From Billgrantia saliphila (GTDB lineage Bacteria > Pseudomonadota > Gammaproteobacteria > Pseudomonadales > Halomonadaceae): DNA of 64,000 nucleotides. The stretch lies in assembly GCF_002930105.1 (NCBI RefSeq), contig NZ_PJRN01000002.1:124001-188000 (forward strand). Direction: 5' to 3'. The notes beneath the pieces were generated by a model. That model was not told the origin of the DNA, ran no database searches, and saw nothing but the letters and a program-made list of their open reading frames with translations. Made by a program: the position numbers and the translations under genes. Shown piece after piece: positions 20,838-51,425 of this stretch; the first letter of the stretch is position 1, and every line of letters begins with the position of its first letter.

Positions 20838-20914
20838 GCCCCCATAGCTCAGCTGGATAGAGCGTCCCCCTCCTAAGGGGAAGGTCCCAGGTTCGAATCC
20901 TGGTGGGGGCACCA
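20838..20914 (+). tRNA. tRNA-Arg (anticodon CCT)
   Basis: The 77-base gene forms a full cloverleaf: acceptor GCCCCCA/TGGGGGC, D-arm GCTC/GAGC, anticodon stem TCCCC/GGGGA around loop CTCCTAA (anticodon CCT, reading AGG), T-arm CCAGG/CCTGG with TTCGAAT loop, and an encoded CCA end. The variable loop is short. A chromosomal tRNA of this type is a common integration site, but no duplicated 3' end was found in the window. Confidence 0.97.
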
Positions 20915-34573: not shown

Positions 34574-35230
34574 GTGAGCCTGGCCATCTTCGACCTGGAC
34601 AACACCCTGCTTTCCATCGATAGCGACCACGCCTGGGGCGAGTTTCTGCTCGAACAGGGGGCCGTGGAACCACAGGCCTACCGCGAGGCCAACGACCGCT
34701 TCATGGCCGACTATGAAGCGGGCACCCTTGACATTCACGCCTTTCTCGCCGTGGCGCTCAAGCCCCTTGCGGACAATACCCCCGAGCAGCTCGCGGCATG
34801 GCACCAGCAGTTCATGGCCAGCAAGGTCGAACCCAGCATCCTGCCCAAGGGCGAGGAACTGCTTGCACGTCACCGTAGCCGTGGGGACACCCTGCTGATC
34901 GTGACCGCCACCAACCGCTTCATCACCGCCCCCATCGCCCAACGCCTGGGGGTGGATCATCTGATCGCGGTCGAGCCGGAAGTGGTGGACGGGCGCTACA
35001 CGGGCAAGATCAGCGGCACCCCGAGCTACCGGGAAGGCAAGGTGAAACGACTCGAGGCGTGGCTCGCCGACACGGATTTCACCCTCGATGACGCCTGGTT
35101 CTACAGCGACTCTCACAACGACCTGCCGCTGCTGGAGCAGGTCGAGAACCCGGTGGCGGTGGACCCCGACCCCATCCTGCGCGAGGAAGCCGAACGGCGC
35201 GGCTGGCGCATCATGAGCCTGCGCGGCTGA
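34574..35230 (+). CDS. HAD-IB family phosphatase (SerB-like)
   Basis: The 218-residue HAD hydrolase has motif I FDLDNTLL at its N-terminus, motif II IVTATN, a Lys in YREGKVKRLEAWL and motif IV FYSDSHNDLPLL. The cap between motifs I and II is helical, as in the SerB-like IB subfamily. The substrate is not predictable; phosphoserine or histidinol phosphate are possibilities. I start at GTG 34574, preceded by AAGGGG; the upstream ATG at 34520 would add a non-conserved leader. A strong terminator follows. Confidence 0.85.
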   Translation: MSLAIFDLDNTLLSIDSDHAWGEFLLEQGAVEPQAYREANDRFMADYEAGTLDIHAFLAVALKPLADNTPEQLAAWHQQFMASKVEPSILPKGEELLARHRSRGDTLLIVTATNRFITAPIAQRLGVDHLIAVEPEVVDGRYTGKISGTPSYREGKVKRLEAWLADTDFTLDDAWFYSDSHNDLPLLEQVENPVAVDPDPILREEAERRGWRIMSLRG

Positions 35231-35300
35231 CCGACTTCGCCGGTTCAGAGTCGTAGGAACTGCGCTTCGCGCCTGGAAGAGTAAAGGCGAAAGACAAGAA

Positions 35301-35333
35301 AACCCCGGAGGCCTGACACCTCCGGGGTTTTTC
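35301..35333 (+). terminator. Terminator after the HAD phosphatase gene
   Basis: Eleven-base perfect arms (AACCCCGGAGG / CCTCCGGGGTT), a seven-base loop and a T run. There is an A run on the other side, so it can also act on the minus strand for transcripts coming from mdh. Confidence 0.9.
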
Positions 35334-35355
35334 TCGCTGGCTATGCTATGAGCAA

Positions 35356-35471
35356 ATAGCCGAGCGAAATGAAGCGCAAGGCGCGCGGCGCACAGGAACC
35401 CGAGCATATGGGGTATATGTGAGGGTTACGAGCACCGCGCAACACAGCGATTCACTCGCGCAGGCATTTGT
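35356..35471 (+). repeat. 116-base intergenic repeat, copy 1
   Basis: This stretch aligns without gaps to 50367-50482 with about 13 differences by hand count. It contains a central GCATAT-GGGGT-ATATGT hairpin and, further out, complementary GCGCGG / CCGCGC arms, giving an imperfect ~60-base stem-loop. It ends exactly at the mdh stop codon, between the HAD gene terminator and mdh. It has no transposase or obvious target duplication. It is likely a dispersed palindromic element of the host genus. Confidence 0.85.
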
Positions 35472-36445
35472 CAGCCCAGCAAGTGCTCGACGGCAGCGCG
35501 CTCTTCGCGAAGCTCGTCTTCGGTAGCCTTCATCTTGGCGCGGCTGAATTCGTCGACTTCAAGACCCTGGACGATCTCGTAGTCGCCGTTCTTGCAGCGC
35601 ACCGGGTAGGAATAGATGATGCCTTCGGCGATGCCGTAGCTACCGTCGGAGGGGATCGCCATGCTCACCACCTGATCGGTACCCAGCGCCCAGTCGCGCA
35701 TGTGGTCGATGGCGGAAGATGCCGCGGAAGCCGCAGAAGAGGCCCCGCGCGCCTTGATGATGGCGGCACCGCGCTGTTGCACGGTGGGGATGAAGTCGTT
35801 CTCGTACCAATCGCGCTCGACCAGATCGAAGGCCGGAGTGCCGGCCACCTTGCAGTGAGCCAGGTCGGGGTACTGGGTGGCGCTGTGGTTGCCCCAGATG
35901 ATCATGCTGTCCACGTCCGTGACGCGCTTGCCGGTCTTCTGGGCCAGCTGGGTCAGGGCGCGGTTGTGGTCCAGGCGGGTCATGGCAGTGAACTGGCGCG
36001 GATTGAGGTCCGGCGCGTTGCAGGAGGCGATCAGCGCGTTGGTGTTGGCCGGGTTGCCCACCACCAGTACGCGCACGTTGCGGCTGGCGTTGTCGTTGAG
36101 CGCCTTGCCCTGCACGGAGAAGATGGCGGCGTTGGCCTCGAGCAGATCCTTGCGCTCCATGCCCGGGCCGCGCGGACGGGCACCCACCAGCAGGGCGAAA
36201 TCGACATCCTTGAAGGCGACATTGGGGTCGTCGGTGGCCACGATGTCCTGCACCAGCGGGAAGGCGCAATCGTTGACTTCCATCACGACGCCGTTGAGCG
36301 CGTCCATCGCCTGCGGGATCTCGAGCAGCTGGAGAATGACGGGCTGATCCGGGCCCAGCATGTCACCCGCCGCGATACGGAAGATAAGGGAGTAGCTGAT
36401 CTGGCCGGCACCGCCGGTGATGGCAATACGTACGGGATCTTTCAT
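35471..36445 (-). CDS. mdh: Malate dehydrogenase
   Basis: The 324-residue NAD-dependent malate dehydrogenase has the dinucleotide motif GGAGQI at 11-16, the substrate loop [26 protein letters not shown], and the catalytic [13 protein letters not shown] with His. Size and loop fit the ~325-residue cytoplasmic-type group rather than the 312-residue E. coli type. I start at the second of two ATGs (36445), five bases after AAGGAG. It interconverts malate and oxaloacetate in the TCA cycle. Confidence 0.95.
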
Positions 36446-36698
36446 CATTGCTCCTTCGATTAGGTCGCCGTGAGGATGAGCCTTGCGGATCCGCGTCCGC
36501 CCTGGCCGAAATCCGGACCGCCAAGATGTTATGCCTGCACCGCACAAAACTCAATCCGACCTCCGGCTAGGGAGGCGCGGGCCGTGGCCCGTGCGCCCTC
36601 GATGAGCATTGGCTGATGCGCAGCTCGACCTGAGGTATGCTGTGCCGACTCGCGCCTAATCGCCACCTCGTCGTCAATCGCACTCCAGGGAAGGTTGC

Positions 36699-49157: not shown

Positions 49158-50303
49158 ATGAAAAAACTAGCCAGCGCTGGCCTCGGCCTGCTAATGACAG
49201 CCTCCATGATGACCGCGGCCCAGGCCGAAGAGGTCAAGATCGGCATGATCACCACCCTGTCGGGCGGCGGCTCGCACCTGGGCGTCGATGTGCGAGACGG
49301 CTTCATGCTCGCCATCGAACGGGCCGGCCGCGACGATATCGAGGTTCTGGTACAGGATGACGGCAACCGCCCCGACCTGGCGCGCAGCCTGGCCAACGAG
49401 TTCATGCAGCGCGACGAGGTCGACATCCTCACCGGCATCATCTTCTCGAACCTGGCCATGGCGGTAGTACCGGCCGCCGTGCGCCAGGGCACCTTCTATC
49501 TTTCGCCCAACGCCGGTCCCTCGGATCTCGCCGGGCGCATGTGCCACGAGAACTACTTCAACGTCGCCTACCAGAACGACAACCTGCACGGCGCCATGGG
49601 CGCCTACATGCGTGAGCAGGGTTTCGAGAAGCCGATCATCATGGCGCCGAACTACCCGGCCGGCACCGACGCCCTGGCCGGCTTCAAGCATCTCTACGAA
49701 GGTGAAGTGGTCGACGAGATCTATACCCAGATGGGCCAGACCGACTACGCCGCCGAGATCGCCCAGATACGCTCCAGCGATGCCGACAGCCTGTTCTTCT
49801 TCCTGCCCGGCGGCATGGGCATCTCGTTCATGAAGCAGTGGCAGAACTCCGGCGTCGACATGCCGGTCTTCGGCGCCGCCTTCTCCTTCGACGAGATCAT
49901 CATCAAGGCGGTAGGCAGTGCCGCCATCGGGGCCATGAACACCTCGCTGTGGGCCTATGACCTGGACAACGAGGCCAATCACGCCTTCGTCGAGGCCTTC
50001 CGTGAAACCTACGGCCGAACCCCGACGCTCTATGCGGCCCAGGGCTACGATACCGCCAACCTGATCCTCAGCGCGCTGGAGAAGGCCCACCCGGACGACC
50101 AGGACGCTTTCCGCGAAGCGCTGCGCGAAGCCGACTTCGATTCGGTGCGCGGCGAGTTCCGTTTCGGCCCCAACCATCATCCGATTCAGGACATCTACGT
50201 GCGCGAAGTCGTCGAGGGCGACGATGGGGAACCCACCAATCGCCTGGTGGGCATCGCCGTCGAAGACATTCAGGACGTCTACCACACCCAGTGCGAGATG
50301 TGA
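49158..50303 (+). CDS. ABC transporter substrate-binding protein (Leu/Ile/Val-type, aromatic acid)
   Basis: The 381-residue periplasmic binding protein has a signal peptide (MKKLASAGLGLLMTASMMTA to AQA) and the type-I periplasmic fold: EEVKIGMITTLSGGGSHLGVDVRDGFMLAIE, VLVQDDGNRPDLARSLANEF, and a C-terminal VEDIQDVYHTQCEM with a Cys. By context it binds the aromatic acid activated by the upstream ligase. It is separated from the permease genes by 207 bases that hold a hairpin and repeat copy 2. Confidence 0.9.
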   Translation: MKKLASAGLGLLMTASMMTAAQAEEVKIGMITTLSGGGSHLGVDVRDGFMLAIERAGRDDIEVLVQDDGNRPDLARSLANEFMQRDEVDILTGIIFSNLAMAVVPAAVRQGTFYLSPNAGPSDLAGRMCHENYFNVAYQNDNLHGAMGAYMREQGFEKPIIMAPNYPAGTDALAGFKHLYEGEVVDEIYTQMGQTDYAAEIAQIRSSDADSLFFFLPGGMGISFMKQWQNSGVDMPVFGAAFSFDEIIIKAVGSAAIGAMNTSLWAYDLDNEANHAFVEAFRETYGRTPTLYAAQGYDTANLILSALEKAHPDDQDAFREALREADFDSVRGEFRFGPNHHPIQDIYVREVVEGDDGEPTNRLVGIAVEDIQDVYHTQCEM

Positions 50304-50311
50304 CCCGGCCA

Positions 50312-50333
50312 GGCCGGCCCTCCCGGGCCGGCC
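50312..50333 (+). terminator. Strong hairpin after the binding-protein gene
   Basis: Nine perfect GC-only pairs (GGCCGGCCC / GGGCCGGCC) around a four-base loop, nine bases after the stop codon, followed by only three T. Inside an operon it may be an attenuator or a 3' stabiliser of the binding-protein message rather than a full stop. Confidence 0.6.
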
Positions 50334-50366
50334 GCCTTTCCTTCAAACTAGGGAAACGCTTCACAC

Positions 50367-50482
50367 ATAGTCGAGCGAGATGAAGCGCAAGGCGCACGGA
50401 GCACAGGAACCGGAGCATATGCGGTATATGTGAGGATTTCGCGCACCACGCAACGCAGCGATTCGCTCGCGCAGACATTTGT
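50367..50482 (+). repeat. 116-base intergenic repeat, copy 2
   Basis: It aligns end to end with 35356-35471, same orientation, same length, about 13 substitutions and no gaps by hand. The central GCATAT / ATATGT hairpin is conserved; the outer GC-rich arms pair less well than in copy 1. It lies between the binding-protein gene and the permease gene of the same importer, ending 28 bases before the permease start. Confidence 0.85.
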
Positions 50483-50510
50483 GCAGTGTTTATCAGAGCC
50501 TGACGATCTC

Positions 50511-51425
50511 ATGACATTATTCATCGAACAGCTCATCAACGGCCTTCAGCTCGGTACCATGCTGTTCCTCATGGCCAGCGGGCTGACCCTGATTTTCGGC
50601 GTGATGGGCCTGATCAACCTGGCCCACGGCTCCTTCTACATGGTCGGCGCCTATGCCACGGCGCTGGTCAGCGCCGCTACCGGCTCGTTCCTGATCGGCC
50701 TGGCGGCCGGCATCACCGCGGCGGCCGCGGTCGGCGCCCTGGTCGAGCTGATCGTGATTCGCCGGCTCTACCATCGGCCCCATCTCGATCAGGTACTGGC
50801 CACCTTCGCCCTGATCCTGATCTTCTCCGAGGGCACCCGCTGGCTGTTCGGCTCCTCGCCGCTATGGCTCAACGCTCCGGCAGCGTTGTCGGGTTCGATC
50901 GCCCTGCCCGGCGGCTCGCGTTACCCGATCTACCGCCTGGTGATCATCGCCGTCGGCATCATGGTGGCGGTGGGCATGTACATTCTGATTTCGCGCACCC
51001 GGCTCGGCATGCGCATCCGAGCCGGCGAGAGCGACCGCGAGATGATCGGCGCTCTGGGCGTCAACATCGCCCGACTCTACACCCTGGTGTTCGCCATGGG
51101 CGCGGCGCTGGCCGGCCTGGCCGGCGCCATGGTCGGCGCCCTGCAGTCGGTCCAGGTGGGCATGGGCCAACCGGTGCTGATACTGGCCTTCGTGGTGATC
51201 GTCATCGGCGGCATCGGCTCGATAAAAGGCGCGCTCTACGGCGCCATCCTGGTGGGGGTGGTCGATACCCTGGGGCGGGTCTTCCTGCCTCTCTTCTTCC
51301 GCCAGTTCATGACCTCCTCGGAAGCCGCCGGCGTCGGTTCGGCGCTGGCCGCCATGCTGATCTACATCCTCATGGCCCTCATTCTCGCGTTCAAGCCGAA
51401 GGGACTGTTTGCCGCCCATGATTAA
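50511..51425 (+). CDS. Branched-chain-type ABC permease (LivH family)
   Basis: The 304-residue permease has about eight membrane segments and the LivH start LFIEQLINGLQLGTMLFLMASGLTLIFGVMGLINLAHGSFYMVGAY. RAGESDREMIGALGVNIARLY and GIGSIKGALYGAILVG are the cytoplasmic coupling regions. The ATG at 50511 is used because the frame upstream runs through the 116-base repeat. It overlaps the LivM-type gene by eight bases. Confidence 0.92.
   Translation: MTLFIEQLINGLQLGTMLFLMASGLTLIFGVMGLINLAHGSFYMVGAYATALVSAATGSFLIGLAAGITAAAAVGALVELIVIRRLYHRPHLDQVLATFALILIFSEGTRWLFGSSPLWLNAPAALSGSIALPGGSRYPIYRLVIIAVGIMVAVGMYILISRTRLGMRIRAGESDREMIGALGVNIARLYTLVFAMGAALAGLAGAMVGALQSVQVGMGQPVLILAFVVIVIGGIGSIKGALYGAILVGVVDTLGRVFLPLFFRQFMTSSEAAGVGSALAAMLIYILMALILAFKPKGLFAAHD

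Follow-up and report, generated by a model that had tools for sequence, protein, structure and literature searches.

A family of 142-bp miniature transposon-like elements with IS5-type ends and a modular hairpin interior in Halomonadaceae

From our comparative analyses, we conclude that two intergenic repeats in the 64,000-nucleotide stretch of Billgrantia saliphila DNA analysed here (the window) are copies of a miniature, transposon-like element of 142 bp that has IS5-type ends and YTAR flanks. It was probably mobilised in trans by the transposase of an IS5-family element, of which searches of the source genome found none. A MITE family with IS5-type ends is an already known kind of element. 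What sets this one apart from a plain MITE is a modular, covarying interior present in two families, changes of that interior at fixed insertion sites, and a bias of its right end towards stop codons.

An earlier note on this DNA had described a gap-free repeat of 116 bases at two sites, and alignment confirmed it: positions 35356-35471 (copy 1) and 50367-50482 (copy 2) share 103 of 116 bases; they differ by 13 substitutions, without gaps, and run in the same orientation. When copy 1 was slid ungapped along both strands of the window, copy 2 was the best match, and a chance match is ruled out because the runner-up place in the window reached only 53/116. Both copies have the central stem and its five-base loop, the GCGCGG/CCGCGC outer arms are seen in copy 1, and copy 1 does abut the mdh stop codon, all as had been described. 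The 116-base borders were too narrow, the family alignment giving the element its length of 142 bp (Table 1). Folding is better than in shuffled sequences for either strand of copy 1 (z -3.5 and -3.7) and of a long form of the element (z -2.8 and -3.4), and weakly so for copy 2 (z -2.0 and -1.2). An intact target duplication is missing at both window copies, the flanks of copy 2 being CTAG and CAGA.

Table 1. Coordinates of the two element copies and neighbouring features in the window.
Feature	Position	Strand	Remarks
Copy 1, short form	about 35341..35470	+	From family alignment; decayed at either outer end; follows the mdh stop
Copy 2, short form, 142 bp	50352..50493	+	From family alignment; recognisable inverted ends; covariance-model match G000:C22:174352-174493 (source genome)
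Copy 2, left inverted end	50352..50371	+	From family alignment
Copy 2, right inverted end	50474..50493	+	From family alignment
CTAG, YTAR word at left border of copy 2	50348..50351	+	Right flank CAGA
mdh-like gene	35471..36448	-	Ldh_1_N and Ldh_1_C; stop TGA at 35471-35473 touching copy 1
Terminator-like hairpin, AAAACCCCGGAGG...CCTCCGGGGTTTTT	35299..35334	.	Past copy 1, viewed from mdh
HAD-family hydrolase gene	34574..35230	+	Convergent with mdh
Periplasmic binding protein gene (Peripla_BP_6)	49158..50303	+	Upstream of copy 2
Branched-chain amino acid type permease gene (BPD_transp_2)	50511..51425	+	Downstream of copy 2

The proposal of a palindromic element dispersed through the host lineage is borne out by its copy number and host range. 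A search of the source genome with copy 1 as the query (E <= 1) gave 16 places, among them four short full copies, two of which are those in the window, and four longer versions interrupted by extra sequence (L005-L008); the rest were fragments or weak matches. Genomes of the genus had a match at E <= 1e-6 in 61 of 90 cases (best candidates scored, at most about nine per genome). A covariance model built from 41 copies, to which some of the searched genomes had contributed sequences, matched 81 of the 90 at E <= 1e-3, with 11 places in the source genome and, in others, counts that ran up to at least 35. The earlier note had held that a single local duplication would follow if no further copies turned up in the genome or in relatives; such copies were found. 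That the two window copies lie 15 kb apart in one orientation could suggest a local segmental duplication, but the copies across the genus genomes refute it, and copy 1 is common to relatives whereas copy 2 is missing from the 29 other loci examined; the probability of this origin is negligible.

Among the matches listed, 117 stretches came from Halomonas, Billgrantia, Franzmannia, Litchfieldella, Salinicola and Kushneria, the last five of which were confirmed as Halomonadaceae; this list is no test of range, since the search pattern was itself derived from Halomonadaceae. In a class-wide sample of 369 genomes, four besides the source genome had weak matches, which is weak evidence for absence elsewhere because only the best two candidates were scored per genome. 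One of these four matches, from a different family (f64), is an element of 143 bp built in the same way (L351). The elements L351 and L352 (genomes G470 and G573, family f64), outside the Halomonas family, have this build with the apex GAGACATATCAGGTAGATAGGCGAG, which resembles the apex of the source-genome copy L004 and of L255. Comparison of a long form with plasmid and phage collections gave no match.

The family alignment extends leftwards to GGAARCGCTGAACAAATCG and rightwards to GGCATTTGTGCAGTGTTTCC, which form imperfect inverted ends of about 20 bp. Our sample contained 151 distinct copies, with both ends present in 121 and clean ends in 100. Among the clean copies, the 4-bp flanks are identical in 31, agree at three of four positions in 28 and at fewer in 41, whereas random re-pairing of the flanks gave a mean of 6.1 exact matches and a maximum of 14 in 2000 trials. 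Both flanks have the consensus YTAR with no wider signal. YTAR is given as the IS5 target in the available text of PMC10359306. The earlier statement that neither a transposase nor a target duplication is visible therefore holds within the window and does not hold at the family level, where IS5-like ends and 4-bp duplications are present.

A candidate mobiliser is an IS5-family element of about 1226 bp, which was matched at E <= 1e-20 in 62 of 275 genomes of the family. Its transposase is of the DDE type, containing PF01609 (DDE_Tnp_1) and PF05598, and scores 303.2 bits with NCBIfam transpos_IS5_4 (cut-off 140). With R scored as a mismatch, 17 of 19 bases agree between the right end of the IS (L110) and the left end of the MITE; between the left end of the IS (L108) and the right end of the MITE, 18 of 20 agree. 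These are the best values among the 30 IS loci examined, the remaining IS members differing more. The IS is flanked by the duplications CTAA (L060), TTAA (L107) and TTAG (L108), and in some copies, such as L061 and L070, the YTAR flanks are unequal. No cognate IS was found in the source genome, where one weak PF01609 fragment fell below the cut-off, nor in genomes G001, G025, G084 and G089, though these have 26-34 MITE matches each. An IS5-family transposase encoded elsewhere would cut at YTAR and move the element in trans; with no cognate IS found in the source genome, such movement there would lie in the past. Points that count against this explanation are that the MITE ends are similar, not identical, to the IS ends, that no interior likeness to the IS was noticed, that 41 of the 100 clean copies match at fewer than three of four flank bases, and that neither window copy retains an intact duplication.

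With regard to class, the element is below 500 bp (142 bp in the short form and up to 272 bp in long forms among full-length copies), without a transposase gene or coding signal, and has imperfect terminal inverted repeats of about 20 bp, at both ends in 121 of 151 copies. Target duplications are present at the family level (31 of 100 exact, compared with a mean of 6.1), an autonomous IS5-family element with matching ends occurs in relatives, none having been found in the source genome, and the flank composition corresponds to the 4-bp YTAR target of the IS5 family. Of the REP/ERIC/MITE-like class suggested in the earlier note, the MITE assignment is thus upheld by the IS5-like ends and 4-bp duplications, and the REP assignment is not, with no Y1/RAYT transposase match. 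A REP unit is a 20-40-nt palindrome with a GTAG/GGAG head, whereas the unit here is 142 bp long with transposon-like ends. A REP/ERIC-like palindrome spread in some other way, for example by a RAYT transposase, with the inverted ends being the foot of a long hairpin, would agree with the many palindromic, intergenic copies and with the hairpin predicted over the whole length. However, the source genome gave no PF01797 (Y1_Tnp) match in a search that was positive in 5 of 14 control genomes, and we rejected the REP reading on this result; the 4-bp duplications and IS5-like ends likewise argue against it; such an origin is improbable. Rfam covariance models gave no match for a long form at E <= 1, and in the window matched only a tRNA.

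Gene context for the copies of the 142-bp element and its long forms was taken from a simple codon-usage gene caller, not from annotation; 144 of 145 copies with context were intergenic, and the copies collapse to 119 independent sites, 114 of them with gene context. Positions relative to gene ends, a check asked for earlier, showed an association with stop codons, which hold 47 of the 114 sites, compared with 119 of 880 non-coding YTAR words (13.5%). The like-for-like count is 36/114 (TAA or TAG), because 11 of the 47 stops are TGA and fall outside YTAR. A stop codon facing the right end of the element lies within five bases of the border or overlaps it in 45 of 54 cases, and one facing the left end in 13 of 58 (Fisher 5e-11; 45 versus 13, p = 3e-5); with the 11 overlapping cases excluded, the counts are 34 versus 13 (p = 0.003). 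Start codons within 30 bases were found at the right end in 30/60 and at the left end in 6/56, and overall the right end is the nearer one at 85 of 114 sites. Since TAA and TAG themselves supply TAR, insertion at these codons would leave the gene intact, and such insertions would hence survive. The preference for YTAR accounts for part of the stop-codon excess, but not for the side; a palindromic target leaves the side preference at stops unaccounted for, which counts against our best explanation. Terminators as the cause of the pattern were considered and found weak: a terminator-like hairpin lies past the element at 12 of 45 right-end sites (opposite strand 9/45; shuffles 8/135) and 2 of 13 left-end sites, and between stop and element at 8 of 33 (opposite strand 8/33; shuffles 1/99).

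The interior of the element is built from modules. Core lengths are discrete, namely 97-100 (96 copies), 112-114 (22), 164 (9) and 178-180 (19), with single copies of 90, 91, 106, 152 and 168. The cores gain 66 bases from a left module and about 15 from a right one; the left module contains a mini-hairpin, GCGAAGC, as well as three hairpins whose loops are mostly GNA. Additional hairpin blocks were found in either arm. An extra block in the right arm, ACAAATTCG...CGAATTTG, followed by more hairpins, was observed in L300, L310, L316, L317 and L348. The same left hairpin module is carried by a second mini-transposon family with different arms and ends (GGAARCRCTGATTTAT ... ATAAATCAGYGYTTCC), both ends being present, with at most four mismatches each, in 7 of 11 copies checked; copies of this family include L145, L304, L329, L315, L144, L150 and L140, and the source genome has one (L388).

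The element may be RNA-active, as the earlier note had suggested. Pairing in the long forms is supported by covariation in 65 distinct left-module-plus-apex sequences (1820 cells), compared with shuffles that ignore relatedness. Standard pairs occupy 97.3% of the cells, and 27.5-35.5% when the partners are slid by one to three columns. Double-change cells number 69 against a shuffled mean of 20.9, and none of 500 shuffles was as high. They occur at pairs 27:35 of hairpin 1, 40:48 of hairpin 2, 56:64 and 54:66 of hairpin 3 (54:66 being unpaired in 28 of 65) and 82:94 of the apex. The number of pairs with a double change (5 versus 4.8 in shuffles) and the number of further pair types (13 versus 14.1) show no excess.

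These results are also what could be expected if the interior were a selected, functional folded domain of RNA or single-stranded DNA riding on mini-transposons, which would explain both the covariation and the side preference. Besides the paired and double-change cells, this is favoured by the sharing of one module between two element families, by the side bias of 45 versus 13, and by the unpaired plus-strand positions of module and apex, which are 80% purine (2406/2990). Purine-rich unpaired positions are usual in folded RNA and possible in single-stranded DNA hairpins. Yet two of the five covariation measures are not above shuffles, Rfam gave no match, the advantage of copy 2 over shuffles in folding is weak, and at most stop-codon sites the gene would read the minus strand, not the strand with the purine loops; palindrome repair could likewise yield compensatory changes. 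An excess of G-U over A-C at pairs (94 versus 33 site-collapsed; by column 20 versus 7, p = 0.02) does not decide for a plus-strand RNA, since unpaired sites show a similar C-to-T excess. We regard a selected domain as possible, though not probable. That the minus strand encodes a small peptide, beginning at an ATG just behind the stop of the preceding gene, is most implausible and was rejected: the ATG is present in 81 of 89 short copies and the frame is open in 71, but the adjacent frame is equally open (73/89), and changes are even over the codon positions (252, 244 and 249), leaving no codon-position signal.

The interiors also differ between copies at the same place. We found 25 groups of copies sharing an insertion point by flank similarity, where one similar flank sufficed for linking and one group consists of two copies from a single record, and the interior differs by more than five bases in 15 of them. 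For instance, L189 and L219 agree in their flanks (112/117 and 117/120) and arms (52/52 and 50/50) and have cores of 178 and 98, and L261 and L250 agree in their flanks (116/119 and 119/120), have identical arms, and have cores of 113 and 98. At shared sites 5 and 8 the left flanks are weak; the pair L266-L270 was discarded as a shared site, its flanks not being in common. The interiors would have been swapped in place, probably by recombination of dispersed copies through their near-identical arms; deletion by slippage may be an alternative source of the differences. A still broader proposal, which we make tentatively and consider doubtful as a whole, is that at least two IS5-type mini-transposon families have taken up a mobile, modular domain of covarying multi-hairpin blocks that acts as folded RNA or single-stranded DNA. 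Dispersed copies would exchange these blocks in place, and insertion on stop codons in a favoured orientation would give many unrelated genes one and the same interchangeable hairpin block as their 3' end, with an influence on their mRNA.

MITEs are usually regarded as shrinking relics of one insertion sequence. One folded, covarying interior on two sets of transposon ends contrasts with this view and, if confirmed, would make testable both the gain and loss of palindromic blocks in bacterial DNA and the effect of a uniform hairpin right behind the stop codon on many mRNAs. The stop-codon side bias is a countable pattern that may reflect either the enzyme or selection. BOX elements of Streptococcus pneumoniae have a modular boxA-boxB-boxC build and are likewise palindromic repeats with variable inner parts; unlike in BOX elements, the modules here are common to two families with IS5-type ends. 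Clustering of BOX elements is mentioned in the available text of PMC10969869, which also describes type II MITEs of prokaryotes, whose likeness to IS is confined to the ends. The present element resembles these, as far as that text goes, in being below 500 bp, in its inverted ends, intergenic position and stable stem-loops, and in short direct repeats that fade with age; type II MITEs are mobilised in trans by IS, as we infer for this element. It differs from them in having an interior module in common with a second family whose ends are unlike its own, in interiors that differ at fixed insertion points and in its side bias on stops, and it is G+C-rich, whereas MITEs are there said to be typically AT-rich. 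Correia elements of Neisseria, according to the same portion of PMC10969869, are also short palindromic MITEs with many intergenic copies and can alter the mRNA of neighbouring genes; their ends and sequence differ, and RNase III cutting and promoters have been shown for Correia elements only. QMITE2 of Coxiella burnetii is similarly found mainly in 3' untranslated and intergenic regions, and insertions of QMITE1 and QMITE2 overlap the ends of genes, and an element immediately following a stop codon is described; their sequences and duplications differ (7-11 nt for QMITE2), and swappable covarying modules or a side bias are not described in the available text of PMC5896051. An IS5-group element has been reported from a Halomonas, namely ISHsp1 of Halomonas sp. 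ZM3 (1518 bp, 460-residue transposase, 6-bp duplication TACTTA; PMC3606827, in the part available), which is distinct from the 1226-bp IS. Our literature search, with most subscription papers outside its scope, found, among the titles listed, none on the element or on Halomonas MITEs.

The two window copies differ in age. Behind mdh, the element or part of it was seen by eye in 8 of the 30 loci examined, out of 87 genomes with an mdh match: as the short form in the source genome, G089 and G008, as a longer, rearranged version in G052, as right halves in G025, G001 and G071, and as a left half in G067. The protein end HLLG is retained in all 30 loci, and a terminator-like hairpin lies downstream in seven of the eight element-bearing loci, the eighth sequence stopping within the hairpin. 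The minus strand of copy 1 would form part of the mdh 3' untranslated region ahead of the terminator, where its RNA would form a hairpin with the protein unchanged. Some mdh loci of relatives that lack the element (L380, L381 and L384) contain, behind mdh, short tandem-repeat runs with the units AAGCGCCGAGCTAC and GGCCGCTT. The site of copy 2 was compared at 30 loci, drawn from the 42 genomes matching the permease (E <= 1e-100), and is occupied in the source genome only and empty in the 29 others. The distance separating the binding-protein stop from a fixed motif in the permease is 219 bases in the source genome versus 72 in G052, the nearest relative (permease 99% identical); the occupied and empty sites demonstrate insertion only, not movement in trans. 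Judging from these comparisons, copy 1, which some relatives share, was inserted long ago and has been inherited, whereas copy 2, without a counterpart in the other loci examined, is younger. A G+C-rich hairpin lies behind the binding-protein stop (window 50304-50340) and is similar in most of the 30 relatives' loci. Elsewhere in the window, a tRNA gene (20838-20911) is the sole Rfam match at gathering scores.
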